A model generated the notes under the pieces. It was not told where the DNA came from. It saw only the letters and a program-made list of their open reading frames with translations, and searched no databases. DNA of 64,000 bases from Bolinopsis microptera (taxonomy: Eukaryota; Ctenophora; Tentaculata; Lobata; Bolinopsidae): the NCBI RefSeq assembly GCF_026151205.1, contig NC_087079.1, positions 12,142,635-12,206,634 of the forward strand. The letters are read 5' to 3'. How positions within the stretch are numbered: position 1 is the stretch's first letter; each line of letters starts with the position of its first letter. This document shows positions 142 to 63,100 of this stretch, piece by piece. The position numbers and the translations under genes were made by a program.

Positions 142-1840
142 CAAGTCTTCAAACTGGGGTATTTAGCTAGAACAAATTCCACGATCTCGTGTCAAACTCA
201 ATACCAAACTTACTTGTGTTGAAAATTTCTGATGTTTTATGACTCGAGCAAGGAATCCCTATTAAGGACACAATGTAAACTAGATAATTATAGAACTTTC
301 ATTATCCAGTAATTATATCTTCTCCTTACTCGAGCTAGAATAGAGAACATCAACATTATCGAACACATGAATTATTTGTTATTAAATAATGAATATCACT
401 CATTGATATTCAACAACAACATAATGATTATACGGCTACAACTACATGATACTCATGGACTCCCTAGTTTTATTAGGGATAAGGGCGGTAGATGAGCGCG
501 TCCCGTATCCTAGCCTCATACTGATAGTACGGTACACAGGGCAGTGAAAGCAGTATTAATGACATTCTCACTTTTCAGAACTAAGTGCCTAATATAATTA
601 AGATAGAACATCTAAACAGTTTTATTCCTATTCCATATGATCGAGGATAGTCAGGGCTACAAAACCTGACCAAGTTTAGCTCAATCCAGTACTGGGCGTT
701 CGAGATATGAGGTTAAATATACCAAAAATAGAGGTTTTCTGGTGTGACATCATTGTAAATTATTTGGAGTATAACCTCAATATCTCACAAACTATACATT
801 TGTGGTCTTTCTGAGTTACACTATCTGTTTCCTCTGGCAATTTCGGTTCAGAGTCAATTAAGTTTGAAACAAAATCTCAGTATATGTGAAAGGACTGAGG
901 ATATCAAGTTTGTAAAAGCGCGCGCGCGCGCGCGCGCGCACACACATATAATGACCTCATATCTTCCACATTTAATGATTTTTTATAGAAATTCTTTCAC
1001 CATCCTGTAGCACTCATGTGCTGAGTAGGATAGCATTCAAATCATGTCTTTAAAAGCTTTAGATAGATACTGAGGGAGAAAATTCATGTTTGTAAAAGCG
1101 CGCGCGCGCGCGCGCGCGCGCATGGCCCAGACTATATCAATGGACGGCCACGGGAGGATAAAAGTACTTTCATACACACCAGCATGCTCATTGATGGCTT
1201 AAAATGAAGCTAAGACATACTCCTATCAGATCCACCATAAGTTAGATACCATAATAATCATTAAATGTGTCTAAAATGAGGAAGCTTTGACAAGTGCGAG
1301 TGGTTTTGGCAAATTTTGGTATAAAATGGGCCCTGAGATCATATTTTTCTCATTAAAATCACATATATATCACGAATATTTATGTGTGTTGGGTGTATCC
1401 TCATTGGTATCAACCATTTCAATCATCTAGAGCAGCTTTCCTGATTCTTTATCTCATGAAAATGGGCAAAAAAGCTCATAAATAGTCCAAAATCGGTCAT
1501 TTTCGCCGCTTTAATAACCTCATTCCTGGCACCCAGAACACTTTGGGTACTCAAAACATAATTTTTCGGATACCTCAGACCCCTAACTAGCACATGGAGC
1601 CAGAAAGAACAGCATGTAGGGACTTCTAAATTTCCATGGTTGAGAACCCAATGTCACACTATTCGTTCATTAATCCTGCTTTCACTGAAGGTAGTAATTA
1701 ACTCTGGGCCACCCTCTATATTCTGATCTCCATCCTGGAGGTCTATATGTCCCAAGTTTGCTCCCTAAACCAAAACCAAACCTGGTACTACCGCCCCTAT
1801 CCCTAAGAAACTAGTGATTCCAATAATCTCACTAAATAGC
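142..1840. other. non-coding stretch, probably intronic, with two (CG)n tracts
   Basis: I see no exon. Two alternating CG tracts (about 919-939 and 1,099-1,122) both follow the words TTTGTAAAAG, about 180 bp apart, so they are copies of one repeat. Such tracts can adopt Z-DNA. The remaining thioredoxin reductase exons (rest of the NADPH domain, dimerisation domain, C-terminal redox tail) are expected further left, outside the window. Confidence 0.5.
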
Positions 1841-2538
1841 TAACAACAACATTGCACGACTACACATGATACTCACTGTATCATAGATGTCTGATAACAA
1901 CAACATTGCACGACTACACACGATACTCACTGTATCATAGCTTAGATGTATGATAACCAGGTAACCAGGTAACCAGGTAGCCAGGTAACCAGGTAACCAG
2001 GTAACCAGGTAACCAAGTAACCAGGTAACCAGGTAACCAGGTAACCAGGTACACAGGTAACCAGGTAACCAGGTAACCAGGTAACCAGGTAACCAGGTAA
2101 CCAGGTAACCAGGTAACCAGGTACACATGATACTCACTGTATTATAGATGTCTGATGTTTGATGTCTGATAACCAGGTAACCAGATAACCAGGTAACCAG
2201 GTAACCAGGTAACCAGGTAACCAGGTAACCAGGTAACCAGGTAACCAGGTAACCAGGTACACATGATACTCACTGTATTATAGATGTCTGATGTCTGATA
2301 ACCAGGTAACCAGGTAACCAGGTAACCAGGTAACCAGGTAACCAGGTAACCAGGTAACCAGGTAACCAGGTAACCAGGTTACCAGGTAACCAGGTAACCA
2401 GGTAACCAGGTACACATGATACTCACTGTATTATAGATGTCTGATGTCTGATGTCTGATAACCAGGTAACCAGGTAACCAGGTAACCAGGTAACCAGGTA
2501 TCCAGGTAACCAGGTAACCAGGTACACATGATACTCAC
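1840..2538. repeat. (AACCAGGT)n array with embedded copies of an exon end and splice donor
   Basis: Blocks of an 8-bp unit (GGTAACCA) are separated by copies of a roughly 35-bp segment that begins ACACATGATACTCACTGTAT. Read on the minus strand, that segment is the last bases of the adjacent thioredoxin reductase exon (ending at 2,539) plus its donor GTGAGT and the intron start. Extra copies lie near 1,863, 1,916, 2,124, 2,261 and 2,411; the functional one is at about 2,523-2,557. Confidence 0.9.
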
Positions 2539-24531
<21,993 letters not shown>

Positions 24532-35149: not shown

Positions 35150-37581
35150 TTAACAAGCATGGAAAGGAGACGCGCAGAGTCGTTGGGGTAAATAGTACTT
35201 GTTGACAAACTCGCCCATCACTTGTCCCATTCTTGGTCCATGTTCCATGTTGTTCCTCCTCGGTTCTGGAGGTAGCTCCATCTGGATACAGTCAATATCA
35301 CCCCCATCCTTGGAACCCCATCTCCTGGTAGTGTACCCGCCTCTGAAGTACTTCCCACCCACTCCGGACCCTGGACCAGGGTATCGGGGCGAGGGTATGG
35401 CCTTGTAGCCAGCCTCTTGGAACATGGCCCCTATACTGGCATCTCCTCGGAGGATCTGTTCAAAGGATACATCTACACGGTGTGCCAGCGCGTTTATTGA
35501 GGACTCTGACCTGTAGTGGTGTTATTTTGTGCTTCCTCTGGAAATCTTACAAATTGCCAAATTGGTTTACATTTTATCTTCTTAAATTTAAACCATACAA
35601 ATGATACTTAATATACTTATAGTACTTGATATGAACTTAATTTCACAATAGTCGAACGAAATTGGAACGTTTTCACTCGAGATGGTTTATAATTATTCAA
35701 CAGACTTCAAACCTTCTGAGTCTTCCAGAGTCCAAATCATCGTTGTCGATGAGATAACCTAGCTCGAACCAAAGGTCAGGGTGACTGCCAACCCCGTGAA
35801 TGTCAAAGTGTATTCCTGGTTGTGCGGTCTTTTTAACCAGATTGTGTGCTTTCTCTATAAACCTGAAGAACTTGATAAAATACAAGGCAATACAATATAA
35901 AACGGTGTCTGATATTAGTGATACCACTGACGACTTTTATTATTTTCCTCGTTTCTTTGTGGGGTTTGAGCGCAAGACTTCTCTTCAACCATTTCGATTC
36001 TCGAACCATCTCACACTCTCTCAATAAGCCTAACAATCGAATAAATAAAACACGTGTCATACCCGTGATAAGTGTCGAATGTGCACTCAGACTTGAAGTC
36101 ACCCTGCGTGGCCTCGTCCCTTTCTCGATTAGCATCCAACTTAGATCTGTGAAGCTGATTTACAATCATGTGTGGGGTTTCTCCTGTCACTTCAGCTATC
36201 TCTACATACAGAGGATGAACTTATTAAATTTATTTTATTACGGGTACATATCTAGATTTATCGTGTGAATTCCAATAAGTTTCTGTTTTGACTTTTAAAA
36301 TTTCGCAATGGATTTTCTTGATCTGTTACAAACTAACTTTCACGAATCTCCATGGCGAGTTTATTGGACCAGAGATCTCCAGAGGTCTTTGGCTCACATT
36401 TCGTAGGATCCTTCCTACCCGTACAGTCGTGGTTCCAGTCACAGGTGCGTGAACGGCGGTCATAGCAACCCTACAGAAAGTAATAATGAGACATATAGCA
36501 ACCCTACAGAAAGTAACAATGAGTCATATAGCAACCCTACAGAAAGTAACAATGAGTCATATAGCAACCCTGTGGCTGTATAAAGTTATTATGAGCTATA
36601 AATAAAATCTGTTACAAAACTGATTTCCGGACTCGTTCACATTAAACGATTGATCAGGACTATACATAGTATGTAACTATAATGTATAATGTATAATGTA
36701 TAATTCCACACTTACCCGCTCGCGATCTGGTAGGGCGCTAGGTCGCTTCCAGCCGTCGTGAGGGACTGACATGATTACTGTAGTCCTCTCTGTGCCACGG
36801 TAGAAGTCCACGTAGTGGCTGAAATTATAGATGTAAATGATTTAATTACTTAATTATGATGTAAATGATTTAATTAATTAATAATTTATCTGTTTGTTGT
36901 GAACAAGTTTGTTGTTTTTAAACCGGCAGGAAATAATATGTGATAATATGTATTTTTCTAGTTGCTCATCACATTGAAAACACCTCGTACGAATGATTGA
37001 GTTAAAAGTTGTCAGTTGTGGGGTAAGAAATGTGGGGTAAGGAATGTGGGGTAAGAAATGTGGGGTAAGGAATGTGGGGTAAGAAATGTGGGGTAAGGAA
37101 TGTGGGGTAAGAAATGTGGGGTAAGAAATGTGGGGTAAGAAATGTGGGGTAAGGAATGTGGGTTAAGGAATGTGGGGTAAGGAATGTGGGGTAAGGAATG
37201 TGGGGTAAGAAATGTGGGGTAAGGAATGTGGGGTAAGGAATGTGGGGTAATGAATGTGGGGTAAGGAATGTGGGGCAAGGAATGTGGGTTTAGGAATGTG
37301 GGGTAAGGAATGTGGGGTAAGGAATGTGGGGTAAGGAATGTGGGGTAAAGAATGTGGGGTAAGGAATGTGGGGTAAGGAATGTGGGGTAAGGAATGAAAG
37401 CTCAGAACTCTGAACCTCGTCTGAAGTTCCTCCTCTAAACTGGAAAACATTATTAACATTTAACAATTAAACCTTAACAGTTAACACTAATGTAGCAATA
37501 TTACCTGTTAAAGTAACCTCCGCTCCCAATACACAAGCTTAACAAGCCCAGTAACAAGGAACCATTTACTGTCCACATCAT
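35150..37581 (-). CDS. secreted N-formylglutamate amidohydrolase-like protein
   Basis: A complete gene of six exons: 37505-37581 (start), 36716-36818, 36338-36470, 36063-36183, 35713-35862 and 35150-35510 (stop). Phases are consistent and give 314 residues. The N-terminus (MMWTVNGSLLLGLLSLCIGS) is a convincing signal peptide, so the product should be secreted. Motifs in order are VIMSVPHDGWKRPSALPDR, VNQLHRSKLDANRERDEA, FDIHGVGSHPDLWFELGY and GGYTTRRWGSKDGG. The PHxG, R-x-K-x-D-x-NR and D-x-HG elements recall N-formylglutamate amidohydrolase and related zinc hydrolases. An uncharacterised secreted animal family has this pattern, so activity on formylglutamate is not implied. The ATG was chosen because it gives the signal peptide. 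The acceptor of exon 3 is duplicated in the intron. Confidence 0.85.
36471..36570. repeat. tandem copies of a 3' splice site and exon start
   Basis: Three extra copies of a roughly 32-bp unit, CATAGCAACCCTACAGAAAG plus TAACAATGAGT. On the minus strand each reads CTTTCTGTAG then GGTTGCTAT, identical to the acceptor and first codons of the exon at 36338-36470. This mirrors, at an acceptor, the donor-side arrays elsewhere in the window. Confidence 0.85.
37017..37398. repeat. 14-bp minisatellite, about 27 copies
   Basis: Unit GTGGGGTAAGGAAT with A/G variation, in the first intron of the secreted hydrolase-like gene. The minus-strand frames rich in PHIPYPTFLT are products of the repeat. A frame through it joins a plausible acceptor at about 37,432, so an alternative exon cannot be fully excluded, but the direct splice from 37505 to 36818 gives the better protein. 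Confidence 0.9.
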
Positions 37582-39935: not shown

Positions 39936-42900
39936 ATGGACGGACTTAATGGGCTTAGCAACCCTTTCATGGATCTTGACCAGGGAGGAAAGTGTCAGGC
40001 TTACTACATTTGGATTGACGGTACTGGCGAGGGACTCAGGTATGTACAGTATAACCCAGATTTACACAATAACCCCGATTAACTGCGCCTGGTTTTCCGC
40101 AAACCCCGATATAATGTTGAGATTCGTTTAGCTTTTACAACACTATGACTAACAGGAGCGTCACATGGTGCATGTGACCACCCCACGGCAAGGCAGAAAG
40201 CTTGGATTCTAAGAACTGCCGATAATACCCCCTCGGCCTCAGGAAAATCCTTAACTAAAAATCACAATTGATAAAAATTATTTCCCAGGGGTAAAACGAA
40301 GACACTGATGAAGCCCACGATGGATCCCGAGACACTTCCAGTATGGAACTTCGACGGAAGTAGCACTATGCAGTCTCTTGGAGAGAACAGTGACATTTAC
40401 ATCAAGCCGGTCGCTTGCTTCAGGTCAGTTCACTTATCACACAGGGTCTTCATTTGAGAACGTTTCATTGGAGTCCGAGTACCAAAATGGCCGTTTGGGT
40501 ACACCGTTAGCCAACCATTCCTCACCAGGGATCCATTCCGACGTGGTGATAACATCCTCGTTATGTGCGAGACACTCGACCACGAAGGGAACGTCCATCC
40601 AACCAACAAGCGACGCAGCTGTTTTGAGAACATGGAGAGGTGCAAGGAGGTCAAACCATGGTTCGGAATTGAACAGGAGTACACCATGTTTGATTTCACT
40701 GGGAGACATCCGTATGGGTGGCCAAGCAACGGTTACCCAGGACCCCAGGTTAGGGACAGACTACAGTTATTTCGAGGTCGCGCGACCTTTTTAGGTGTTT
40801 TTGGACGAAAATTTCGTACCATAACAGCTGTGTTCCGTGTGGAATTGATTTGATGTAAGAACTAAGACTTGGTCCAATTTCTATGATAGGAAATAGGGTA
40901 AACAATCTGCTAGTACTTCTTTAGAATATGATCCATATCATTGACGGATTCAATAATAGGCCCCACCATCACTGTATCGTTTATATAACTTAAAACTTTC
41001 ACTTTCAGGGCCATTACCACTGCAGTGTTGGAGCTGAAAAAGTTAAGGGGAGGAAGATCGTGGAGGCTCATTACAGAGCTTGTATGTACGCTGGTATCAG
41101 GATCGCTGGATCCAACGCAGAGACCATGCCTTCTCAGGTATAATAATCTAGTTTGATTTTCTTTATATCTAGAAATTTTGCCGCTGAAAAATGTAGTTTT
41201 CACTGGAGCTATGGTCACACTTTTTCAAGACATCGAAGAAAGATCTTTAAAGACACCTCACCATATTCCACCTCAGTGGGAGTACCAAGTAGGCCCCTGT
41301 GAAGGTATCGAGATGGGCGACCACCTTTGGGTCTCCAGGTGGATTCTTCAAAGGATTGCGGAGGAGTTCAATGTGGTTATCAGCTTTGATCCTAAACCTA
41401 TTCCTGGGGATTGGAACGGCGCGGGATGTCATGCGAACATCAGGTTAGTTTTAAGGGGCGGGTTGTCATGTGAATGTCAGGTTGATCTGGTTTTATTTGG
41501 TTCGAGAAAAGCTTATCTGATTTTTTGCTTCACTGTTCACTTCTCAAATCTTTCCCAAGGACTGTGTTGTTGTTTAAACTGTAAATTAATTATCTACCAA
41601 TTCCCTTCATCAAATTCTCCTTATTTCTCACATAAAATTCTCCTCATTGACATTCCTACAGCACATTAGCGATGAGGGAGGAAGGCGGTCTGGAGAAGAT
41701 CTATGAGGCAATCGAATTGATGGGGAAGAAGCACGAGGAGCATATTTACGCCTACGATCCGTCAGGAGGAGTGGACAACAAAAGGAGGTTGACTGGACTT
41801 CATGAGACAGCCAGGTTAGTTTGGGGGGGGGGGGGGGGGGGGGGGGTGGGTGGAGCAGCCAGGTTAGTTTGAGGGGAGGGGGGGGTGGAGAGGCAGCCAG
41901 CTTAGTTTGGGGGGAGGGGGGTACAGAGGCAGCCAGGTTAGGTTGGGGGAGGGGGGTGGAGAGACAGCCAGGTTAGGTTGGGGGGAGGGTGGGTGGAGAG
42001 ACAGCCAGGTTAGGTTGGGGGGGTGGAGAGACAGCCAGGTTAGGTTTGGGGGGGGGGGGGGGGGGGGGGTAGAGAGGCAGCCAGGTTACTGGTTAGTAGG
42101 GGGAAACAGAGCTGGCTAGGATGGAAATGGATAAACTGCCAGGTAAGGTCCATAGAATTTGCAGAAATGAGAAGTGCTGTAAAATGGAAAAGAGGGAGCA
42201 CTAAGTTTGTTTTTTAAAGGAGAGGGGGAGTGGACTATGTTCATAGAATTTTTAGTGTTTTTCCATTGACTCTAAACAACTTATCAGCCCATTAAAAAGC
42301 CCGTATACGTTTATTTACTCTCAAATCTCAACAACATTCCACAAAAAAATTTTGCTCATTATCACAGTGCTGGCAAGCATGATCGTGCCTTTTATACATT
42401 CTATACTATTATAAAGTTGATAATCGAAGAGTTGCACACGTGGGGACAAGCTGAGAGTTTATCCGCTTTGTTGGCGAACACGAGAAGAACAGGGTCGCTC
42501 AGTTTATCTTCGTTTAACATTTTTTCTAACTCCCTCCGAGCCTGATTAAAACTTTCTTTGTCGGTGCTGTCCACTACGAATATGATTCTCTGGTAGGGGA
42601 AAATGTGAGGAACTTGTAGAATGTACTAATGTAGGTAGGCCTCATGCAAGTTATAATATATCCCCTCTGATTACTAATACTAGACGTACGGACAATTGGA
42701 AACTTATTACAATTCCTAAGCTGTAAATGAATGAGGTAAGTGAGCGACCGATTTCATTCTCGGTATCATTTTGCATTTACGGACGTTCATTCAAATAAAT
42801 ATCATTTCTTTTTGTTTGGGAAAGAGAGACACTGGCAGCAGTTCACTCTATCCAATTATGGGTTTTGGTCAAATAAAAAATACGGAACACCTTTCCAGAA

Positions 42901-45900: not shown

Positions 45901-48772
45901 ATGACCTGGTCCTGATAGCTTATTCCCTTGTTCGTACAATGGCACTCATCAGTCGAACACACACTATCAGAATCGCACCTAGCGCTCTTTCTTATCTCAC
46001 ACTGATAAATATCACCCCCTGCAATAGATAAATCTGACAGTGTTTTACGGCTTGGATATAACAAGTTGGAATAAAAGTTCAAATAATCGAAGTTCATGGG
46101 GCACACAGGGCCTTTTAACTTTAGTTCTTCAGAAAACATTTTGCCTTTGTGATGAAATCTAGCGTCTTTTGAGTTAAAGTACATGTTTTCAACTGATGTA
46201 GCTTCCCACTGACACGGAGAAACTCGTCCATATTGAAGGAGAACATTGTAATATAACAAATCAAAATGTAACAAATCAAAATAAACCGAAACGAACTTTA
46301 CTGATTTTCCTTCCTCGACTACTCCTGTAAGTTCCTTAGGAATGTAACCCGGATTGTTTCCATTGTCTCCATGTCTTGTAGTTGTAGAACGGGACTTTTC
46401 TTTTGACATGCCTACATTTACCATCACCACACAGAGGAGGAGAAATGTTTTAGCTCTCTTCATCTCTATGTGATCTTGTCTGATGGAGTAATTGGATTAG
46501 GCACATCTAGAAATAGTTTTAAATTCTCCCTTGTTTACTTTTAAGCTCCAATGCGAAAAATGGATCAAGTTCGAAATTTTATAAGGCCTTATAAAATTAT
46601 TAGTCAAAACCATAGCTCGCCCAAATTTTAAGAAAATTCTTGTGAAAAGGCCCCTTGAGGATGAAATTGATCTGGGTAATTGTATTTTTGGACGCTGATT
46701 TCGAATCACCCCTCATGACGTAAGGTAAAAATACTTCCCTGGAGAGTTATGGGCAAAAAACCGTTTTGGTCACGTGACATGCTAGTAAAACATGAGTTCG
46801 ATCGTTTATGGCTCGGGTTAGGGTTAGGCCTAGAGTTGTGTTAAGAATAAGGGTTATGGATAGCTTCGGGGTTATGGTTAGGGTTAGTGTTGGGATTAGG
46901 GTTTATGTAAAGCCGTTTTGTACGGCTGAAAAACCATAAAAACCAAAGTCACGTGACATTTTTGGGCGAGCGAATTAGTAAGAGCCCAAAACCATAACTG
47001 AAACTCTTTATAAGCTGTTGGAGTTGCCCGTATTATCAAATTGTGGGCGATACGGATACGGAGACTATGCAGGTGACTTGTGTTCAAAGAACCATCCCTT
47101 AAATATAATAGTCCACCATTCCATTGTTTGTTATTTTGGAGCATTCTTTTCATCAAAATTTTGAAGACAAAGAAGCATTGATTGAATACTGACGCAGCGA
47201 TCGGTCGCCTAGTATTTGAAAGCGATGAATGAAAATGAACAATAGTTACATTTTCATTTATGCGACGAATAATATAAGACATTAAAGGAGTGTGTAATTT
47301 GATTTTTCGCAATTCTCGAATCGCACGATATCGTACCACGCACGTTATTTCATTGATATCATAATCTACCAATACTAATACTAATAGGGATAATGGTTAC
47401 TTGGTGGCGCTCAGCCTGTCATTCCGCCGAATATCTATTTGTTTATGAACATGATAGCCTGAGGTCCCCATGAGGTAAGGGTTTTGGTCAAATAATATAA
47501 TCATATTCCTGCAGGGCGCCACTTTTACGGCCTTGATCCGTTTAGAGATTGTATCTTAAGTGAAAATAAATCAACTAATTTTGGAAACGGTGGCCAGGCT
47601 TGTGCCCCGTACTATCTTACTATGAAGTCCAATCGAGGGCTATAATTATTTATTGTTGGCGTTGCCTTCGCCCGTTTTTTACCATATCCGGTCTGCCATT
47701 TATCTCAACCGGCTTCCAGTGAGACCGCCATTTATTTTATTCTTAACCCTCCAGTATATAGTGAAACCGATGAATACCTTCCCAACCCATAAGATGAAGA
47801 TAATCACAGAATCTGAATAATTTCATCAAATTCAAATCGAATCCAGTAATTATATCAGGGGGGCTCGAGGTGAAAAGATATTTTAGAAGAAATGATGAAG
47901 GGACAGTGTGAAGAAATGAACTGCAAAGAAAGAGGATATAAATATCCAACTTATATAGTTCGTACTTCGTGGATATATTGTCTATATTAATATAGTCAGG
48001 CAATGGTGGATTCTATTAGTTTAGCTTTGCTCGCCCACATAAAACGTTAATTATGCCGGCCTAGCGGCCCTGATGCTATCCATATCACGGAAACAAGAAG
48101 AATCCAAAATCTAAATTCATGGTTAAACTTAAAACCTCCCCACTTTATAATTTAAAGTAATTGTTTGTATTTCAGCATTGAAAAGTTCAACTTTGGCGTG
48201 GCCGACCGCACTGCAAGTATTAGGATTCCTCGACAGGTTGCAGCAGACGGAAAAGGATACTTTGAGGTAATATAATAATTATCATATCGGGTCTCTTCAA
48301 GATGTCTCGACTGCCTAGACATCAAACCTTGGCAGTCGGTAATTTTCCCTTGGCCCGGAGTCAGCTAACCCTAGGGACCCTAAATAGTAGCAGATATTAT
48401 CATGTTTTAACAAAAGACAGGGCTTGCAATTTTACTTGCAAATGATATAATATAAGGTGCTATTAGTATTACATTTACATATATCATAATTATATCAATT
48501 CGTCTGGATATGATGTGTAATGTGTATGTCGAATTCGTACTCGTCTCGTAGATAAGCGAAGCAAAACGAAAAATTGTTCACTGTAAGTGTATACGATGCG
48601 AGTTGCAACAAGCATAGTAAGCAGTGGTTTTGCTAAATCAAATAAACAATCAATTTACTAATTATTAACTAATTGGTATTTTATTTCCACCTAGGACCGA
48701 AGACCCAGCAGCAACGCTGACCCGTACGTCGTTACCGATAGAATTATCCGTACCATCTGCCTTGACGAGTAA
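39936..48772 (+). CDS. glul: glutamine synthetase, class II, complete
   Basis: Makes glutamine from glutamate, ammonia and ATP in the cytosol. Eight exons (39936-40039, 40289-40423, 40529-40748, 41009-41137, 41277-41443, 41662-41814, 48176-48266 and 48695-48772) splice in frame to 358 residues, the usual length for eukaryotic GS. Family motifs appear in order: [21 protein letters not shown] (beta-grasp), [12 protein letters not shown] (metal and glutamate ligands), [35 protein letters not shown] (ATP signature), [19 protein letters not shown], and [20 protein letters not shown] with [11 protein letters not shown]. The chosen ATG gives [19 protein letters not shown], in line with related enzymes. 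All catalytic residues I can check are present, so it should be functional. Intron 6 is 6.4 kb, against at most a few hundred bp for the others, and houses another gene on the opposite strand. Confidence 0.97.
41418..41494. repeat. two-copy duplication of exon 5 end plus donor (glutamine synthetase)
   Basis: The last 26 exon bases and donor (GCGGGATGTCATGCGAACAT, CAGGTTAGT) recur 38 bp downstream inside the intron in diverged form (GCGGGTTGTCATGTGAATGT, CAGGTTGAT). The gene model uses the first donor. Confidence 0.8.
41806..42095. repeat. G-rich array containing copies of exon 6 end plus donor
   Basis: After the exon ends (GAGACAGCCAG, then GTTAGTTTGGGG), about seven more copies of GAGACAGCCAGGTTAGGTTG or close variants follow, separated by G-runs. 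Some copies keep the donor; at least one has CAGCTTAG. The plus-strand Gly/Arg-rich frames here are repeat products. Confidence 0.9.
42401..42589 (-). pseudogene. orphan ARF-family GTPase exon
   Basis: After an acceptor-like CCCTACCAG, 62 codons read [20 protein letters not shown], then [20 protein letters not shown] and KADK, then unrelated residues to a TAG. This matches the ARF/ARL core from the beta strand before the VVDS motif through the nucleotide-base motif NKxD (here NKAD). The P-loop, switch I and DxxGQ exons are absent nearby, and the homologous part ends where ARF genes often have an intron. It lies antisense in glutamine synthetase intron 6. It is probably a translocated exon, less likely part of an unseen nested gene. 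Confidence 0.7.
43029..43535. mobile_element. TA-flanked MITE, 507 bp
   Basis: Ends are inverted: CCTTGACGGACCTTATTTGG then ACGGACATTAA at the left, and TTAATGTCCGTCCAAATAAG then GTCGGATAAGG at the right. TA occurs on both sides. The GGACGGACATT word also builds the array at 17,280-17,452, suggesting a related family. Confidence 0.75.
43575..43925 (-). repeat. 66-bp-type repeat after the GPCR stop, open in another frame
   Basis: Five to six units encode, in the frame +1 to the receptor, the peptide motif [14 protein letters not shown] or [14 protein letters not shown]. The unit length is close to 66 bp, so several frames stay open. The first unit overlaps the receptor's last codons. It may be a lost or alternative C-terminal extension, or only a repeat. 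Confidence 0.7.
43926..46463 (-). CDS. LDLa-repeat class A GPCR, intronless, nested in glutamine synthetase intron
   Basis: A single 845-codon frame. A signal peptide ([18 protein letters not shown]) precedes an ectodomain of about 430 residues with three LDL-receptor class A modules: [20 protein letters not shown] near 200-220, [18 protein letters not shown] near 370-388, and [15 protein letters not shown] near 408-424. Seven membrane spans follow, from [18 protein letters not shown] to TM7 with NPISY (the NPxxY motif). A basic or acidic stretch equivalent to DRY is reduced to LRCL after TM3. The loop between TM4 and TM5 is unusually long, about 100 residues. LDLa-bearing rhodopsin-type receptors include relaxin-receptor and snail GRL101 types, but no leucine-rich repeats are evident here. 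The ligand is unknown. The lack of introns suggests retrotransposition or an intronless family. Confidence 0.9.
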   Translation of the reverse strand: MKRAKTFLLLCVVMVNVGMSKEKSRSTTTRHGDNGNNPGYIPKELTGVVEEGKSVKFVSVYFDLLHFDLLYYNVLLQYGRVSPCQWEATSVENMYFNSKDARFHHKGKMFSEELKLKGPVCPMNFDYLNFYSNLLYPSRKTLSDLSIAGGDIYQCEIRKSARCDSDSVCSTDECHCTNKGISYQDQVMFCPRRDGGKACIAFHAVCDGIVDCADHSDECLCQDSYELFCDRIPQLKRLCLSKLDYCSHLPEINELNCSNQPININCTEIIWNSFYLELDYNPFVKCLNILLLLSKSQNDFEKWVLKYGDSLAETCITHCTNTTELEKWKLFCQNIDFQRNELEYPLVFKCENDTVAYSNNSYPLTFLCDGKIHCLNSADELDCPGRFYCSVNETVTWINESLVCDRKKDCSNGKDECSGCTVDGSESVEFMVESKLIAGLASFGSLSIMIINISVGLTNFHENPTSKAAQIDRILRLSICFYDFLMGVYLFFMIVASIVLKVKGDYCQSDEDWRASVVCMMLGVTFSVSSHGSLIVIGIMSILRCLKCSLGFSFELSTKTVKIVNVIVFLLSFIHSIVPILPIYQLQNFFRTSMILTAVDKNPFITSREGPAMIKHVQRIHSHYFNNSLSSSTDTIRILADLRNANITSDNTIFDVADIGYYGNTPLCISNVFKVQGNYHAYKVVYCVVVALLLTVITASYTIIVVKAKSSRQQAGPVNNDNTSQLTLKLSLMIISQLVSWVSFIAAVIILAYTGENPSAKMFEIFALIVIPINSLLNPISYSTMYKHITTYLWTSGKKCFATVKERVQNRVDNEIELQVYNSNENFGTLGTPSAESSTNTTGDC
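46464..48175. other. rest of glutamine synthetase intron 6, with telomere-like GGTTAGGGTTAGG
   Basis: At 46,806-46,900 several GGGTTAGGGTTAGG-like words lie between two copies of GTCACGTGACAT (about 46,769 and 46,950). Both flanks share short inverted words (GCTCGCCCAAA versus TTTGGGCGAGC). A similar TTAGGG cluster and the words GATTCCGAATCACCCC occur at about 33,526-33,712, so this is probably a dispersed non-autonomous element. No further gene is recognised. Confidence 0.5.
48298..48440. repeat. second copy of the 6,090-6,800 repeat family
   Basis: GTCTCGACTGCCTAGACATC, AAACCTTGGCAGTCGGTAAT and, after a short gap, GACAGGGCTTGC match the element at 6,104-6,260. It lies in the last intron of glutamine synthetase. 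Confidence 0.75.
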
Positions 48773-49021: not shown

Positions 49022-49027
49022 AATAAA
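49022..49027 (+). other. candidate poly(A) signal of glutamine synthetase
   Basis: AATAAA lies 250 bp after the stop codon on the plus strand. No better hexamer is seen nearer to the stop. Confidence 0.45.
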
Positions 49028-49189: not shown

Positions 49190-49860
49190 TGGTACAAGAG
49201 TATGAGGCGCTAAAAGGCAAAATTGAGGTACTGGAAGTCAAAATCCCCGAAAAAATGGAAAAATCATATTCTACCATTTCTAGTTTTTGAAGACGAAACT
49301 CCAGGACCGAAATTTCACAGTTTTGACCGAATTCTTCTCCAGAAACCAATTATTCAGTCAATTATGGATGCCATATGACACAATTTAGGTGCTAGAAGTT
49401 TGATTCCGGTCGGAGGAAGCTTTGTGCTTACTACAGAAAGCTTTACAAAACGAAAATTTACATTTTCAAAATTCTGTCCCATTTTCAAATATGAAAATGC
49501 CTGAACAAAAATTTGACTGATTTGATGGACGTTTTGCCCACCGACCAATTAGTGAGCTAATTGAGGATGGTATGAGACCAAATTGAGGTACTGGAAAAAA
49601 AATCCCCGAAAAAATGGAAAAATCATATTGTCCCATTTTCAAATATGAAAAATTCTGAACGAAAATTAGACCAATTTGATGGACGTTTTGCCCACCGACT
49701 AATTAGTTAGCTAATCGAGGATGATATGGGACAAAATTGAGGTACTGGATCTCCTAAAAAATGGAAAAATCATATTCTCTCATTTCTTGTCCCATTTCCT
49801 GTTTTTGAAGACGAAATTTCTGTTTTTACCTAAATTTGTTATAGTGGATGGCTAACAAAA
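49190..49860. repeat. diverged repeats of about 180-190 bp
   Basis: The words GAGGTACTGGA, AAAATCCCCGAAAAAATGGA and AAAATCATATTCTACCATTT recur three to four times with changes, together with TGATGGACGTTTTGCCCACC twice. I see no coding capacity. It lies between glutamine synthetase and the receptor gene. Confidence 0.7.
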
Positions 49861-49983
49861 ATATTGGTTCCGAAAACTTCATTTCTTGAGTACGCCTTAA
49901 AAATTCCTAAATTGTATAATTATTATTGTACATCTGACTATTTGAGGAGGAATGGAACTGCTCTGGCTCAATACAATGAAATA

Positions 49984-50845
49984 CCGTAGAATGGGGGAAC
50001 TTCGCCATGTTTTACAGCTATTTCATGTTATTTAGAAAATACGACACGAGTACTTGAAAAAGTTTATAGCTCATATGAACAGGATTGGTAAAGCAAATGT
50101 TTTCGTATGAACCACATCAGCCAGGCATAAATAGTCAGCTAGATTGGTGCCACTGAAATCAGGGCGAAGTTACCCTGCAATATGGGATAACTTCGCCATT
50201 CTGAAACTATACCATATTCGGTGCTAAGCACCATACCACTCGAAACTCAATTATATTTCCTTGATATACCTGCCAATTTTACTTATCTAGCTCTAGCCTG
50301 CGTGTTACAATGGGCAATTTGGTCGCTGGGGTAACATCGCCATGCTGCGGGTAACATCGCCGGGATGAAGTAGAAATGTAGTCGAACTTCGCCAATACAC
50401 GTGCGTGACTTTGCCAGCCGCGCGCGAATTTCGCGCCAAACTTCGCCGAACAGATGGGATCAGAAGAGGGTAACTTCGCCACACACAAATTTGAAAACTT
50501 TATAATATCAGTTGTGTGCATCATGGCTAACTAAATTCGCCCTTAAATGAACAGGACATATGCTAATGATGTCACACAGAATTTATTAAGGATATAATTG
50601 TAAAATATGGGAAATATGCAAGCAGGAAATTTTAGCCACTTTATTGCATTATTTCATGTTGCCTGAGTTTAATTAACATAGTAAGATAGTAAACGTTTAT
50701 TTTTGAATAGGAATACCTTTATAACCATTTGTTCAACACAATACTATACAAAAACTTGATCTCCTAACAATTCAAAACAGTAAAATGATTATTTGAAAAA
50801 TAGTGGCGAAGTTCCCCGACACGGCGATTTTACCCCAATCTACGG
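49984..50845. mobile_element. TA-flanked non-autonomous DNA element, 862 bp
   Basis: The left end CCGTAGAATGGGGGAACTTC pairs with the right end AAAATCGCC...CCCCAATCTACGG, flanked by TA. Internally GTAACTTCGCC or GGCGAAGTT recurs many times in both orientations. The 81-codon minus frame at 50,279-50,524 carries this repeat and is not a gene. Confidence 0.7.
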
Positions 50846-51250
50846 TACAATTACATGACATTGGATATGAAAAAACATATCAATGATTAATGATATCTAT
50901 AATAATTATTCATCATTTGCATTTATTGAAAAATCATAAAAGAATTATGACTAACGAAAGTTAATTATTTCAGCAGGTTTTTTGGTGTTCAGTCACATCT
51001 CAAGATAATGGTGATAGGAATGAGTAAAAATAGTTAATCGGATCTAAGTTTTAGATATTACTTCAGTTTAATCAAGGGTCATACATCCGGATCCCGATGG
51101 CACTCTCGTGGTACCCTCGAGGCACAGATATAATCAAGTACAGATATACACAGTTTCTTATCATGGCAAAGCTGATAATGATTATGAAGAGAAATTGTAT
51201 GTTGTCATAAGAGAGCATCGGCTGTCATCTGATCCAATACCAGGTGTCTT

Positions 51251-54177
51251 CTAATATCTCTGGATAGAAGCTGTGGATGATACTACCGAAGCTCTTCTCA
51301 TAGTTGTAGATCCACCAGCAGCGGTCAGGCCAGCAGAAGAAAATCCTGACAAACCCAAACTGGTTCCTATTTTCTGCTGAAGAGATCCGCGTAGAGATGA
51401 GATCTCTGATTCAATGTCGATCTTATTTGATACCTTAAACTTTAGAAGTATCTTAGTAACCCATTGCTCCAGCATTCCTTCACTTGAACCTGCATTTTAT
51501 TTATTATTGCTTAGCCATTACAAACAGGAAAGACTGACATGGATTTAGTTGCATTACTGACACTACCAGGATTCAGGAATGGTTGAAAGCCGGCTAATGG
51601 TCGCTTTTCACTAAGAAATAGTTTAAAGTCGGTTAGTTAATTAATAGCTCATTTGGTTCAATAATGGCGATTCTCATCCGATTTGTGCGATGTTTGAAGA
51701 GGAAAAATGTTCAGCCGAAACCGTTTGGCCGATAGGAAAACTGAATTGAAATGTATACCTTGTTGGGCAGCTTTTACTTTGATCCCCTCTATCAGTGACT
51801 GGAACTGTTGTGCGGAGAGTTTTACGGAATATTTGCTTGACACCCGGGTTATCATGGACAACATCTGTTCTTCCGTCATCACTATACCTCCACCACTTGA
51901 AATGTCACCTAGGAGTGATAATAGTTAGAGATCGTCTGAAACAGTGATGCTAGTTGAATAATTGGGAGACTGTAAATCTGAGTGAACTTCATTCATCACC
52001 TCCAGCAAGATCTATGATAAGGAACAGAAAACTCACCCTTTAACTTAGCAAGCATTTCAGCAACAAATTTACTCCTTGAAGCAGCACTTCCTCCAACTTG
52101 CTGACTGGTCATCTTTTGCTTCAAGCCTGCGATAAATTCCCCTTCCATGTCCCCAGGCAAAGCAAAACCACTCCCTACCAGTTTGCTGCGAATGAGCTCT
52201 CCTATTGCTTCATCATCGCCACCTTTTACGGCCCTTAGTTGCAATGCTTTTGATACGATCATTTGCTGAAAGATATAGTGTTCTATGTTGTTCGAGTCAT
52301 TAACATAAGGATTGATAATTACACAAGGAATGATAAGCAGGGTTATTAAATTAACAAACAGAAACCTCAACTAGCTCAGTATCTCCAGTCATCCCTCGTA
52401 TTGTTACACTTGCCATCAACTCCACCATATCCTCAGAGGACAGGGAAATTCTTCGCTTTCCTGAGGTGAGAAGTTTACAGGGGCGAGAAGTTTATCAGGA
52501 CTAGAAATGTGGATTCTTAGTGGGGAGGCGAAGCATTAAAAAAAATTCGTGATAGTGATTTTCTGGGGATTGATTGGTCAATAACGGATTCTAATTGGTT
52601 AATTGATGTCACGTGTCAAAAGATATGCTTCACCTTTCCATCTGAATCCACATCTAGATACCCGGTGATTTTCGTCATAATGATGAATAGCTATAATAGG
52701 GCTTCTACGACTAGATACAGACAATTAATAAATATGAACATTTTTTAATTATCAAGCTTTACCCAAGATAGCTTGAATTTGCTCCAAAGATACTCTTCCA
52801 GACTCATCATCATCAAAAGATATTCCCAGACTTGCACCGATCTTTATTTCTAAAGCTGCACGAAGAGATGCTACCTCCGAACCGAAATCAATCCTGTTGG
52901 AAACTTTGAATTTTAGAAGAATCTTCGTAACCCACTGTTCTAACATTCCCATTGACAATCCTCTCTCTGCCACCTTGAATTTTATAGCCTCAAAAAGTGA
53001 CAAGTTTTGCTGCATAGACAGTTTGACAGACAGTTTCCCAGATACCCTAGCTATCATTGAAGATATCTGCTCAGCTGAGAGAACCAGGCCACCTCCACCC
53101 GCGATTTCATCTCTTAGTTTCTCCAGCATTTCTGAAACAAATCTGCCTCTGGAGGCAGCACTTATCCCAGCTTGTCCAATAGTTATCTGCTTCTGTAATC
53201 CCATCAGGACTTTTCCTTCGATGTCATCAGGTAAAGCCACGCCAGAGGTGAGCACTTTGCTCCTGATGAGATCCATTATAGCTCCTTCGTCGCCTCCCTC
53301 AACTCTCTTAAGTTGTGCAGCTTTGGCGGTTACCATTTCCTGAAAGTAATACACATTCTAAAGGAGTAATATCCCTCAACTCTCTTAAGTTGTGCAGCTT
53401 TGGCGGTTACCATTTCCTGAAAGTAATGGCTCCAAGTTACTGCGGACATAGTTCACTATGTGTTTACCGTGTTTGGGTGCCCATCATATTTTACAGATGG
53501 GTGCGATATTTTGAACGATTCTATTTTATATTCATCTATTGCTGTACTCTGTAAAATTTGAAAAGTATTTAATAAAAAATACACATTCTATAGGAGTCAT
53601 ATGCCAAGAATTGTAGACAGATTCTTCTTGTTCAAACTCTCCATTTTCGCCTATCTCTTTAGATATACAAATAGATCCCTTTCGAAGAACGTAGGTGCAT
53701 AATAGAATAGCGCAATTGTTTCAGTTAGATAATGGATAATTGACCGGTAAACAAAACAATATGGCAGGATCTATAGCATCAAATATCGTATTATTATATA
53801 GTTGTACTTGTAGTGGGAATAGTATCTCACTATATTGATATTTAAGCATTGTAAAGTTCTGATACTCTACCTCTATAAGATCGTTGTTCCCACCCATGCC
53901 CTTGAGTGTAAAACTTTCCATCAACTCCAATTTGTCGTCATCGTCCAACTTTATGTTGTGTTTAGCTGAAATTTTGTTGGTTTCTGCTTCTAAATTGTCC
54001 TTAGATTGTTTCGTGAATATATTTTATCCCTGGACTTGGGAGCAAGCCAGCTCTGAAGATTTAAGAAATTAAAAATGTTAGCAACAAATTGTAATTACCT
54101 AAAATAGTTACGAGCTTTCTAGCTGAGATTGTACCACTAGATTCCTCACTGTCTCTTTCGTCGCTGCCTTCGCTTAT
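51251..54177 (-). other. two tandem copies of an unrecognised domain at the receptor C-terminus
   Basis: Copy 1 spans exons 54099-54177, 53871-53965 and 52763-53339. Copy 2 spans 52366-52460, 52037-52265, 51759-51908 and 51251-51489. Shared blocks include ELMESFTLKGMGG / ELMASVTIRGMTG, IMDLIRSKVLTSGVALP / IGELIRSKLVGSGFALP, ISSMIARVSGKLSVKLS / MLSMITRVSSKYSVKLS, and MLEQWVTKILLKFKVSN (identical in both). DDDESGRVSLEQIQAIL and SSGTISARKLVTIL have the spacing of a degenerate EF-hand loop. The domain looks helical. I cannot assign it to a known family. Confidence 0.75.
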
Positions 54178-57100: not shown

Positions 57101-60100
57101 ACAAACCTGAATGCTGTCAATATCTGCTAGACTGTGAGGGTTTACATCAGAGCCGGGTCCTAAAGGAGCCATTGCTCCTCTATTCGGATCAGCAGGTTTT
57201 TCACTCTCCAGTGAACCGTCATCATCCCTTCCCATGTCCAGAGGGGCCTCATCGTCCCTATTGATTTCTAAAGGGGCCTCATCGTCCCTATCGTTTTCCA
57301 AAGGGGCCTCATCGTCCCTATCGTTTTCCAAAGGGGCCTCATCTTCCCTATCGTTTTCCAAAGGGGCCTCCTGAAAAATATTCGGGAATCAGCGTCAACC
57401 AAAACTCGTGGCCGATATTGTCCTGAGGATTTGACGCAATCACGAGATTAAAAAATCTATGAGATAAACTAGAAATAAACAAGAGTTTACGTAGGTATTA
57501 GATGCTGGTCCGTCAATTTCGACTGGACCAGCTGCAGGGTCTTCTCCATCAGGCGTCAGTTCTTTATTTTTAGGTTCATAAATTGGATTATCCACCTGGG
57601 TATTGAAGTTACAGACTTCATATTGATAGGGATCTTATTGTGGTCTGTAGAGAATTTAGGAAACGAAAAGTAAATTTGAACCAGGCACCATGAACCAAAG
57701 TACCTAATAAAGTAATAAGCAAATGAGGATAACTTTACCACATCTGGAATGCCTGTTCCACTGGTAAGTGCCTCGTACTTGTCCTGATCCTGTTTACAGC
57801 AGGAACAGAAGGACGAACAGGCACCTCCACATCTCCGTATCAAGTCAGCCAAACAGGGAAAGGCAGTTAGTAAGCAGGAACCAGGAGTACACTGAGAATT
57901 GAGATAGATAAGACACAGGTGAAACTTTTTAACTGGTATCATTTCTGAGTTGATCTCGAAAAAGGTATGAAGTCGTAAATTACAATAACCTTCAGTACTG
58001 TGGTCACAGGCATTTCAGTGAAGAGTAATCAGGTTCGAAAAATCCGGCCATCAAAATACTTGTGATGTCAAAGCAGCGGAATAGGAGAAACTACTTAAGT
58101 AACATACTATAAGTACATACTATAAGTACATACTATAAGTACATACACAACATGCTTTGCAGCAGATGAGAAGGAGTATCCCCAAGAAGAGTATCCCCAG
58201 TATGATGCCAACAGCTAGCAAGAGAGCCATATTACCGTCATCCTCTCCAACACCCGCTACTGTCCCTCCTGTCCCTCCCGGAGCTGCAACTCCTCCACCA
58301 GCTGCACCCACTTCAACACATTCTGCGGGATGTACAGCGTCACAAAAGTGATACAATTTACAGATGATAATGCCTCTTACTACTTTACTAACTGATATAT
58401 TGTCAAACGAATAACTATTATATTTGGAAATAGCGATTTTATTTTGGAGTTAATGGCACAGCGAGGGGACAGCCAGCATGAGGAATAAGTAGCACGCAAT
58501 TGGTGTACAAAATCTTTAAAAATAACCACAAAATCATAATAACGGTTGATCCGAAAAGAATAATTCTACCTTCAGAAGCAGTGTCCAGATAAAAGAAACT
58601 ACTGCTCTTGTGGTAGAAATAATACTGACAATCGTCCACTACCACCGTGCACTCTCGTGTACCTAAAACAGTTAGTTCATAAGGGTACTGGTTATTTGCT
58701 CGACATGTCATTATCCAACATGTCATACAGTTAATTCCCCGGTAACGGTTACTAACGGCCCCTAATTATAAAATTGAAAGACAAATAGGTAACATACCGG
58801 CTGGGATCTGGTCTAACGAGGGTTTGTTGATAACAGTAGTGCCGAGACACTGTGAGGTACATTTGTTGAACCCCTTATCAAAGATACAGGTAGCACATGT
58901 CTCGAAGTCTTCACAGGAAGTACAGACCTGTTGATAAAAACCGATCATAAAAACATTTTGAGACAATTTATTAAAATGCTGGAAATTAATGAAAAGTAAA
59001 TTTTTGAACCGTTCCAAATTCTTTGGATTCTCACTCAAAAAAGCAAACGATGCACGAAGTACACAGTAAGTTGTACTCACAGTGCAGGTTTGACAGTGTT
59101 TTCCTTTGTACCCACCGTCACATACACATCTCCCGTTCTGGCATTCACCGTGCCGTCCACATATCACCTGGCAAAGAGGTACCGTTAACAGCTGATAGGT
59201 ACTGTGTAAAACATCTTGAGCTTAGTTAGAATTTAATCATATAGTGGGACGTTGGAAGTTGGGAGCTAGGGGTGTTGTTGTCTGTTAAACCTGTAGAAAT
59301 CTGTTGAGATAACCGGTTTGTAAGTTTGTAGTGAGACTAATACTTACATTAGTACTGTCCCTACACTGCTAATACTTACATTAGTACTGTCCCTACACTG
59401 CTAATACTTACATTGGTACTGTCCCTACACTGCTAATACTTACATTGGTACTGTCCCTACACTACTAATACTTACATTAGTACTGTCCCTACACTGCTAA
59501 TACTTACATTGGTACTGTCCCTACACTGCTAATACTTACATTGGTACTGTCCCTACACTACTAATACTTACATTGGAACTGTCCCTACACTGCTAATACT
59601 TACATTGGTACTGTCCCTACACTGCTAATACTTACATTGGTACTTTCCCTACACTTCTAATACTTACATTGGTACTGTCCCTACACTACTAATACTTACA
59701 TTGGAACTGTCCCTACACTGCTAATACTTACATTGGTACTGTCCCTACACTACTAATACTTACATTGGAACTGTCCCTACACTACTAATACTTACATTAG
59801 TACTGTCCCTACACTGCTAATACTTACATTGGTACTGTCCCTACACTGCTAATACTTACATTGGTACTGTCCCTACACTACTAATACTTACATTGGTACT
59901 GTCCCTACACTGCTAATACTTACATTGGTACTGTCCCTACACTGCTAATACTTACATTGGTACTGTCCCTACACTTCTAATACTTACATTGGTACTGTCC
60001 CTACACTACTAATACTTACATTGGAACTGTCCCTACACTGCTAATACTTACATTGGTACTGTCCCTACACTGCTAATACTTACATTGGTACTGTCCCTAC

Positions 60101-63100
60101 ACTGCTAATACTTACATTGGAACTGTCCCTACACTGCTAATACTTACATTGGAACTGTCCCTACACTACTAATACTTACATTGGAACTGTCCCTACACTG
60201 CTAATACTTACATTGGTACTGTCCCTACACTGCTAATACTTACATTGGTACTGTCCCTACACTGCTAATACTTACATTGGAACTGTCCCTACACTGCTAA
60301 TACTTACATTGGAACTGTCCCTACACTGCTTCTCACTGTACTGACACGCTTCTCCCGAGTACCCACCAGCACACAGGCATTCCTCACACATACAGGTTCC
60401 TGTGGTAATATATGTCTCGTAATTATAATAATCATAATCATCATAGTTGTAATAATTATAATATTAAATAACAGCATAATACGATAGTATTGTTAAAGTG
60501 ACACCACATAATTATAGGGGCTGGAGTAAGAGTACTCAGTCCAGGGTTCTTCTTTAAGGCTCTCTCAGCCTGACCATTTTTTGTCGCCACAATTTTGCGT
60601 GTATAATTTGATTTGTATTTTCAGTACTATTTGTCTCGAATAATTAAGACAAAGACTTCGATTAGAACAGATAGCTGTGTTACAAACCTCTACCGGAGCA
60701 GATAGCTATGGTGTTTTTACCCTCCACTCGACCTTTAGGACAGTTCCCATGGTCACACTCACAATAGTCACCGTACGTCTGAAACAGTAACTTTAGTCAG
60801 TCTGAGTAATGTTTCAGTAACAATTGAGAACAAGTGGGGTCGCTGAATATAGCATGTTAGAACGGGAGATCGAACCGGTAATTCGTAATGTGTTATAAAA
60901 TCACGAAATATCAGGAGCCTTGAAAGAGCTTCACCGCAGAGTGCAGTCATATCTTTAAAAAACTTACGAGATCTTCACATTTACACCGACCACACTGACA
61001 AGTGCCCCTACTAGAGCACATGGGCACCCTATTCCTGGACCTAACCCTAGGGTTAACACACTGAGTCACATTACCAAGATCCCCAACTTTACAGTCACAT
61101 TTAGCTCCCACCCAGCCTGACTTGCAGGAGCAGGAACCACCTGTGTAATTGTAAACAGGTTATGAGTATAAATAAGGAGTTATCATATCTATGAGGTTCT
61201 CACTTAGTCACTATTCCGTTAAATTAGTTACATAAAATATATTATATAGTACATAAAATTTCAAACACGCCACTAATTCTGACACCCTGCAGCCTGCTGT
61301 ATGCGTCTATCAACGTTTTAATAGTTTTCATAACTTCATAATCTCATAATGTTGTATTTTCTTGCCGTTATAAAACATTGAAATCTCACCAACCACTAAA
61401 TTCTGTCTTACCTTGGTTGCCACTAGATTCTATCCTACCTTGGTAGCTGCCCTGTTTGTTACACTTCACGCTGACAGGCTCAGTGGGCAGGTTCAGAGTG
61501 CACACTGTTTCAACCTGTACAATAGTTAGTTTAAGTTTTTTTTAAACAGATCATCGTTTTTTTGAAAACGACATTCGTATATGAAAACCGACAATCGTTT
61601 TTTAAAGCCTATCAACGTTATTAAAATCCGATCATAAACGTTTAAAAAATTATAATCGATTTTGAAAACCGATAATCGTTTTTGAAATTGATAAACGGGT
61701 GTTATTTAAGTATTTAGCACCACACGGCGGAGATTGACCTGGTTATAATTGGCCGAGTAATCTTTTGTTGCTATACCCTACTCCACACTCCACAGTACCC
61801 TACTCTACTAATCTGTGAATGAAATGTACCTCTAGTTTGAGTTGACCGTAAGCAGGGAAGTTAAGAAGAGTTTCCTCTTTAGTTTCCAAACAGTGGCTGA
61901 CACAAACTTTCATCTTGAAAGTGATGTCACTTTCTTTATCTACATTATCACAACTTCTAGTGGCATCTCCTGATGTTGAAAATGTTTTAAAATGTAAGGT
62001 GAAAACATCGATAAAGTAAAGTAAGTAAAGATTACAGCGCATTATATTTTCCGAATTATATTTTTTACAAACTTTCCAGACGAAAGTCTACCTGTGAGAT
62101 GGCATATATAGGAGACATAGTCTACCTGTGAGATGGCATATATAGGAGACATAGTCTACCTGTGAGATGGCATATATAGGAGACATAGTCTACCTGTGAG
62201 ATGGCATATATAGGAGACATAGTCTACCTGTGAGATGGCATATATAGGAGACATAGTCTACCTGTGAGATGGCATATATAGGAGACATAGTCTACCTGTG
62301 AGATGGCATATATAGGAGACATAGTCTACCTGTGAGATGGCATATATAGGAAACATTGACTCCAGGAGGAATGTCCACCAGGGTAACAGAAGGGTTGGAC
62401 ACTAATGAGTTGTAGTAGCTGCTGATCTCTTCATCTAGTCTAGTAGCGGCTGATAGGTCGAAAACCTGATATAGTTATTAGTGTTATCAGTATATTCTAA
62501 ACTTCTTACAAAAGATTAGGTACAGGGTGAGTTGTACATGATAGGGTAAACATTACAGAAACGGTGAATAGTAGATATGAGTTTTGAACAAAAAAACAAA
62601 AAAAACAAGGACACAGTACTATGTTGTTAATTATTTTGCAGTATACGTTTTAATTCTTTTCAAAGTAAATACTAACCTTTGAGTTGGGTATCATATCCCT
62701 CAGCATCCTCTTATCCACAGAACTTGACACTACAAACACAGGGATGGTGTTGTTCCTGAGCAGCATGTTTGCCACCTGTACTATAGAGGGGTAATCGGTT
62801 GTAAACCCATACTTTCTAGTGCTGCCAGTCCGGCAAACTTCATCAAACGGCTGGACGAACCCACCCAGTTTTCCATCTCCTGCTATGTGAGGATTATTGT
62901 AGAGTGCAACTATGACCATCTTGTTGCTGGAATCTCTCCAACCCATCTGGTTACATATCAAACTCTGGTAAAGTGCATCAAAAGCGGCGTTTCCTTGAGA
63001 GGTAGTGTCGTTGGTGTACATGGTCTCCAGGATTAGTTTGTAAATCTTGTCGTTGTTTTCCAGGTAGTTGAGGGCTCTGAAAGCGTGGGCTTCACTGCAT

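Follow-up and report, generated by a model that had tools for sequence, protein, structure and literature searches.

Several introns in a stretch of 64,000 nucleotides from the ctenophore Bolinopsis microptera (assembly GCF_026151205.1, contig NC_087079.1, positions 12,142,635 to 12,206,634; hereafter the window, with coordinates counted from its first base) carry tandem arrays whose units contain the last bases of the adjoining exon joined to its 5′ splice site, and two further arrays overlap acceptors. Copying of exon ends by intron arrays is a genuine, recurring feature, present in window genes for integrin-beta, glutamine synthetase (GS) and a thioredoxin reductase-like (TrxR-like) protein, and found again in introns sampled elsewhere in the genome without regard to repeats. 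These arrays are probably mirage-type minisatellites in a ctenophore, whose growth is largely blind to the exon-intron border. Mirages were previously described from amphioxus, where they were proposed as makers of introns; what is new here is their occurrence in a very distant animal.

Exon ends copied into intronic arrays

Regarding the window, nine junctions (seven donors and two acceptors) were confirmed by direct reading of the DNA, and their arrays also with Tandem Repeats Finder (TRF). Each junction, taken as 24 exonic and 8 intronic nucleotides, was aligned to its own intron, over at most 1 kb, and 100 foreign junctions served as the comparison. All of these were outscored by six of the seven donors and by both acceptors; own-intron scores were 16-32 at eight of the nine junctions, against 8.5-15 for the best foreign junction in the same introns. 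Donor 61438 is the weak one: it scored 10, a value equalled by two of the 100 foreign donors, and few of its exonic bases are copied. An earlier note on this DNA, made from the sequence alone, had claimed that exon end and splice site are copied on the intron side; this holds at eight of the nine junctions and is weak at 61438. The tandem unit contains exon sequence plus splice site, as in mirages, and arrays are present at both 5′ and 3′ boundaries, the latter being acceptors 36470 and 53339 of the window and those of sample stretches L030 and L041.

As for the rest of the genome (264.65 Mb), exons of kinesin, myosin and TCP1 were located by Pfam profile search, and 26 stretches (labelled L0xx; 229,126 bases) were taken as the sample, covering, in the first 20 stretches, 101 of the 136 kinesin matches, together with two myosin regions and three TCP1 regions; DEAD-box matches were left out. 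Junctions were inferred by combining phase, an open frame and splice signals, and exon pairs with query gaps above 14, or with no solution, were skipped. A junction was obtained for 110 exon pairs, and removal of the 10 with a score of 0 or less left 100 introns (68 kinesin, 15 myosin and 17 TCP1), including two pairs of near-duplicate paralogues, L023/L024 and L026/L027. The score cut of 13 was set when the results for the first 62 kinesin introns were already known.

At this cut, four of 100 donors (L025, L034, L036 and L039) and one of 100 acceptors (L041) matched their own intron, against none of 100 exon-internal 32-mers, none of 100 reversed junctions and none of about 2,970 swapped pairs. 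The donor count is steady, being four at cuts of 12, 13 and 14, and three at 16 and 20. The earlier note had proposed a comparison with shuffled junctions; own-intron matches were in excess over foreign junctions in the window and over swapped and reversed ones in the sample. The longest array lies at the kinesin locus L034, where the exon end and its GTAAGT recur about 52 times with a unit length of about 33 bp, so that up to 51 donor copies follow the first donor and the high copy number is confirmed outside the window. The same note had spoken of a genome-wide habit: the feature does recur beyond the window, at four of 100 donors drawn from three protein families, but its excess over random array placement is at most modest, as detailed in the next section.

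An ab initio gene finder written for this analysis, which recovered 99 of the 100 verified donors (its training set) at an exon cost of 14, was run at a cost of 16 and retained 326 exons, against 13 in reversed sequence. Its 298 introns gave seven donors, four acceptors and two exon-internal segments with a score of at least 13, where swapping predicts 0.1, 0.25 and 0.2, respectively. Four of these donors belong to the verified set; of the remaining three, those of L024 and L030 depend on doubtful exons and that of L023 is AT-rich. The credible acceptors are L041 and one of the two at L030, while that of L036 belongs to a false exon. Run on the window, the gene finder missed the GS gene.

Other repeats were met in the kinesin loci of the sample. 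In L030 (oriented on the minus strand, 4785-5129), seven 49-bp units of the form GTATTC...CCCAG, each shaped like a tiny GT-AG intron, lie across the acceptor of a kinesin exon. In L041 (also minus-oriented), two introns of one kinesin gene open directly with long arrays at 3668 and 2484, one of 13 bp × 21.7, which includes the donor GTGAGG, and one of 21 bp × 29.6; little or no exon sequence is copied in them. Finally, the same intron differs in length between near-identical kinesin paralogues, with 122 and 1062 bp in L023/L024 (a low-score junction) and 1009 and 4535 bp in L026/L027.

Array placement relative to splice junctions

Arrays are abundant inside these introns. TRF placed 57 arrays wholly within the 49,951 bp of the 100 verified introns, distributed over successive fifths of the intron as 17, 8, 6, 11 and 15, with no clear departure from evenness and the ends fuller; among interior 32-mers, 825 of 4,566 windows (18%, a figure inflated by long arrays) had a following copy. 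Overlaps with junctions were then compared with a model in which each array is moved within its own intron, with an exon overlap of at most one unit, at TRF scores of 40, 60 and 90. In the verified set, four donor overlaps were observed, where shuffling predicts 2.16, 1.79 and 1.23 (P 0.16, 0.09 and 0.03). The larger set of 290 introns combined verified and predicted ones (verified introns replaced predictions, L024 was dropped, L030 was merged and the period of L036 was 53); here the same four overlaps compare with 4.81, 3.94 and 2.67 from shuffling (P 0.28-0.72) and 3.80, 3.05 and 2.13 from a density estimate (P 0.17-0.72 over both models), and the 190 introns beyond the verified set had no additional TRF-detected donor overlap. 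The earlier note had argued that chance placement of arrays would not copy exon sequence so often; none of the swapped pairs reached the score, and shuffled arrays alone predict 1.2-2.2 overlaps in the 100 introns or 2.7-4.8 in the 290, against the four seen.

Shuffling predicts 2.19, 1.78 and 1.26 acceptor overlaps in the verified set, with none observed (P 0.09-0.26), and 4.83, 3.96 and 2.70 in the 290 introns, with one observed (P 0.04-0.23); the P of 0.04 is reached only at the loosest array score in the 290 introns, and the stricter scores are not significant.

Several observations weigh against growth that ignores the border. In the verified set, the density estimate gives 1.38, 1.04 and 0.66 donor overlaps against the four found (Poisson P 0.05, 0.02 and 0.005), and 11 arrays start within 20 nucleotides past the donor, where 5.5 are expected (P 0.011); stricter array scores leave 9 with 3.9 expected and 7 with 2.6 expected, and the acceptor-side counterpart has no excess (4 against 5.5). 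The window, which was chosen for the feature, is richer than the sample, with seven donors against 57 predicted introns (GS excluded). Genome-wide, the donor word AGGTAAGT is paired at 4-34 nucleotides 1,201 times, against 19 times for its mirror word. The donor-side lean is thus about twofold in the best set and unconfirmed in the next best, and it comes from several looks at small numbers.

Apart from the window count, these observations are the ones that would favour splice junctions as seeds of arrays, through a trigger at the 5′ splice site such as a co-transcriptional RNA-DNA hybrid or templated repair, and the count of four donors against one acceptor among the verified junctions points the same way. 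As an explanation, seeding is nonetheless rather unlikely. Among 106 predicted introns with well-scoring exons there is no excess, with five donor-side array starts against 3.75 and no true overlap against 1.14; the 83 weaker predicted introns gave 11 starts against 4.4, but this excess is suspect because false exon ends tend to adjoin arrays. A lean towards donors could come from seeding, and selection against arrays near the acceptor could yield it too. That junctions act as seeds, as the earlier note proposed, is accordingly left unproven, with the lean in the verified set on one side and the well-predicted introns on the other.

The word counts are similarly double-edged. AGGTAAGT occurs singly 10,758 times in the genome and its mirror 7,965 times; however, the scrambled word GAAGTAGT also forms pairs (202, and 329 for its own mirror), and with 19 pairs, corresponding to at most 19 possible loci in the genome, the mirror of AGGTAAGT is an unusually low control, for which reason the pair excess was rejected as proof of seeding. 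A few satellites weigh strongly in the AGGTAAGT pairs, one 32-bp unit filling two loci on C1: long arrays of this AGGTAAGT-bearing unit stand at G000:C1:36576-37703 and C1:761375-762150, 0.7 Mb apart, which makes some of the donor-word arrays dispersed satellites. A count by eye among the matches listed gave 12 loci of AGGTAAGT over 28.9 Mb, as opposed to 40 of GAAGTAGT over about 169 Mb, a 1.75-fold difference in density that makes no reference to the single-word frequency of GAAGTAGT. In the sample, permutations of the letters of AGGTAAGT were paired in 504 of 6,171 occurrences (8%), forming 42 word-loci (0.7%), and GTAAG-bearing permutations in 2 of 224. Also weighing against seeding, a convincing coding exon end was lacking at all four tandem AGGTAAG loci of the examined DNA: no exon was predicted to end at L001 or L002, L003 has a 14-nt exon inside the repeat, and L004 a weak 57-nt exon.

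Array growth that is largely indifferent to the border would work as follows. Tandem duplications would arise often in the introns of this genome, with little regard to where the exon ends; whenever one took in the end of the exon together with its 5′ splice site, one exon copy would be kept in the mRNA and the extra copies would become intronic. Such copies would be harmless as long as the spliceosome used the donor adjoining the real exon, and could persist and expand like other intronic arrays, while duplications that added copies within coding sequence or disturbed the acceptor end would be removed more often, so that the survivors would lean to donors. Selection would then shape the surviving arrays, the duplication itself being nearly position-blind. 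Border-crossing growth together with tolerance at donors would explain most of the pattern, and a modest, about twofold, donor preference is possible in addition.

Donor choice, intron birth and related systems

Regarding splicing, the copies in 11 donor arrays (seven from the window and four from the sample) were scored with a donor matrix trained here, and the frame was read onward; a donor copy was counted only when it shared 12 or more of 15 bases with the first donor, and the phases of window donors were set by eye. The GS exon 5 array has no counted copy because its copy decayed below this match. In eight of the 10 arrays with scored copies, the mean copy score lies within 0.2 of the first donor, as in L034, whose 51 copies average 9.0 against 9.2; the mean is higher than the first donor at 61438 (8.6 against 7.8) and lower at GS exon 6 (10.3 against 11.7). 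Eight of the 10 also have no copy reachable in frame before a stop, while at 61438 and GS exon 6 splicing at the first copy would lengthen the protein by 9 or 16 residues. Downstream donors mostly ruin the coding frame, and therefore splicing must pick the exon-adjacent donor, in one case against 51 copies; judging from the DNA, the first donor is presumably the one used in these arrays, and frequent use of later copies would mean loss of most of these proteins.

Such strictness is not self-evident, since in human cells SRSF1 and hnRNP A1 can favour either of two competing 5′ sites, according to the available text of PMC5585400. Tentatively, then, the arrays might be viewed as an experiment of nature on how 5′ splice sites are chosen, in which the exon-adjacent (intron-distal) donor would have to win over as many as 51 downstream donors of equal predicted strength; ctenophore splicing would commit to the first, exon-tied donor, this strictness would let arrays persist and lean to donors, and extra upstream acceptors would be captured by splicing and purged. 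The acceptor overlaps cited for the last step are the counts at the loosest score given above, namely 0 against 2.2 and 1 against 4.8. In any case, the arrays are ready-made contests between identical 5′ splice sites, the winner of which is directly readable from long RNA reads, and how the first of many equal donors gets chosen is the question most worth work.

Intron birth or enlargement of the type proposed by Rogers, in which an AGGT-bearing duplication gives both GT and AG and whole units are spliced out, is very improbable for these arrays, contrary to the earlier note. Units with AG/GT (the slash marks the splice junction) occur in six of the 11 donor arrays, and the seven GT...AG units at the kinesin acceptor of L030 have the expected form; however, AG/GT is ordinary, being present at 60 of the 100 verified donors, and enrichment of AGGT at the 11 array-bearing donors over these 100 was sought and not found. 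Moreover, the array ends short of the acceptor in all six donor arrays examined (the four of the sample and two of integrin-beta, with ends at 62085 and 59337), so that it does not supply the acceptor of the intron. It had also been argued that removal of whole units leaves the mRNA unchanged; this fails for five of the 11 arrays, the units of which have no AG before the GT.

Less probable still is a function for the donor arrays, by which many U1 sites would tether the U1 small nuclear ribonucleoprotein against premature polyadenylation, or slow or regulate splicing: predicted donor strength is indeed kept over up to 51 units, but any young array is expected to show high identity. The least believable account is chance or assembly artefact, since chance is already contradicted by the swapped pairs, and, error-prone as assemblies are at long arrays, 12 of the contigs encountered reach 15-26 Mb, scattered substitutions distinguish the units of the 60307 array, and the pattern appears in four kinesin paralogues with different units.

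As for known systems, the amphioxus mirages occur in Adh3, the globins BflGb6 and BflGb9, troponin C and PGBD5; in the parts of these reports available (PMC3087553, PMC3902484), they have the same structure as the ctenophore arrays, which takes away the novelty of the structure itself, and are reported not to disturb splicing. They were described in cephalochordates, and the ctenophore host is a taxon difference, not a structural one. The ctenophore placement agrees with a glutamate-receptor protein of this genome, to which, among solved structures, ML032222a of Mnemiopsis (published genome 248 Mb, 13 chromosomes) is by far the closest, with E = 9e-121 against about 4e-71 for the kainate receptors that come next. 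Compared with those portions of the reports, the present data add up to 51 donor copies, a per-intron rate and tests against random placement. Human internal tandem repeats at exon-intron boundaries, found within segmental duplications, are likewise minisatellites with units of about 30 bp that overlap boundaries, but differ, as far as the available text goes, in altering transcripts and perhaps forming new introns in young paralogues (PMC2812944). Finally, the intron-gain cases of the AGGT type (Hellsten ATP2A1, fission yeast and potato RdRp; PMC4974935, available sections) share duplicated exon sequence with GT/AG signals, whereas the ctenophore introns examined keep their own acceptor outside the array.

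In the ctenophore literature, limited to the accessible parts of open-licence papers, those on the genomes of Hormiphora and Mnemiopsis among them, no mention of arrays of this kind was found; the Hormiphora paper, in the portion available, gives tandem repeats as 13% of the genome. A donor rate of a few percent, near that predicted by array-rich introns, suggests that in distantly related animals exon-copying arrays arise generally as a by-product of introns rich in repeats.

Genes and other repeats of the window

The gene names integrin-beta, GS and TrxR-like are supported by Pfam matches (PF00362, PF00120 and, slightly below its cut-off, PF07992). The integrin-beta gene, on the minus strand, has three of the donors. 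Its predicted exon 62330..62465, downstream of one matching PF00362 (E = 7.9e-34), has the donor TCTCACAG/GTAGAC (first intron base 62329), and the TRF array at 62085..62356 repeats a 34-bp unit eight times, with exon tail and donor copied (score 30 against a foreign maximum of 10.5). A 27-bp duplication × 1.9 (61393..61444, by TRF) at the 61439 exon end holds donor 61438 with its weak exon copy; the gene finder placed this exon end at 61412, i.e. at the second copy. The predicted exon 60308..60399 has the donor TTCCAAT/GTAAGT (first intron base 60307), followed by a TRF array at 59337..60330 with a 32-bp unit × 31 and 30 intronic donor copies (score 31 against 11).

The GS gene lies on the plus strand. 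Exon 5 (41277..41443, PF00120) has the donor ACATCAG/GTTAGT (first intron base 41444), and in an alignment with solved glutamine synthetases residues 1-54 of its 55 are covered (E = 7.7e-28); by this alignment the exon end is conserved coding sequence and should hence be the source of the lone diverged copy in the intron at 41444..41490, the donor of which is degraded (score 16 against 10.5). Exon 6 (41662..41814, from the reading frame) has the donor ACAGCCAG/GTTAGT (first intron base 41815); a 50-residue piece of it, searched alone against Pfam, had no match. The adjoining G-rich array (41815..42090; 41834-42060 by TRF, the edges by reading) copies ACAGCCAGGTTAGTT and has six donor copies (score 16.5 against 10.5). 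A further GS-like coding piece with a putative acceptor stands near 48695, within the 41815-48770 region; before it, at 43926-46496, on the opposite strand, an 856-residue open frame with LDL-receptor class A repeats and, by eye, a region resembling seven transmembrane segments apparently represents a gene nested inside a GS intron.

In the TrxR-like gene (minus strand), the exon 2539..2634, read directly, ends in TATAATACA/GTGAGT (first intron base 2538; score 28.5 against 10.5), and the TRF array at 1954..2561 has an 8-bp TAACCAGG core and blocks that copy 18 exon nucleotides plus the donor, with three donor copies. Searched alone against PDB, this exon had no match, so the name rests on the second exon and on reading. 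The latter, a predicted exon at 16669..16784 of the pyridine nucleotide-disulphide oxidoreductase type (PF07992, E = 1e-5, 25.6 bits against a cut-off of 26.1), has the donor CACCAG/GTTAGT (first intron base 16668; score 17 against 11); its array (16275..16676; 16275-16657 by TRF, the edge by reading) consists of 39-56 bp units with exon tail and donor, and six donor copies.

Both acceptors are on the minus strand. A 33-bp unit × 3.3 spans acceptor 36470 (36462..36571, by TRF; score 17 against 8.5), and a two-copy repeat at 53338..53425, with a spacing of about 77 by eye, includes acceptor 53339 and about 60 exon nucleotides (score 32 against 15). Copying at the two acceptors stands as the earlier note had it, but the genes named for them found no support: the integrin exons that were read end near 58147 with a membrane-spanning stretch, and acceptor 53339 lies downstream of them, so it could not be assigned to that gene; the open reading frame at 53339 and the one hydrolase-like frame examined had no match in Pfam searches.

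Three minor observations concern other DNA. Window positions 17917-21831 are occupied, for about 4 kb, by GAG/GGACT-rich arrays whose strand skew is extreme, with TTTTTGTCCG decamers close by. In stretch L042 of the sample, two adjacent matches (G000:C3:9154012-9154485) cover one stretch of the myosin head (profile positions 105-167 and 102-167), perhaps a duplicated or mutually exclusive exon. Finally, a 459-residue open frame at window positions 8934-10313, which matches the zinc-binding region of reverse transcriptases below threshold, is likely a retroelement remnant.

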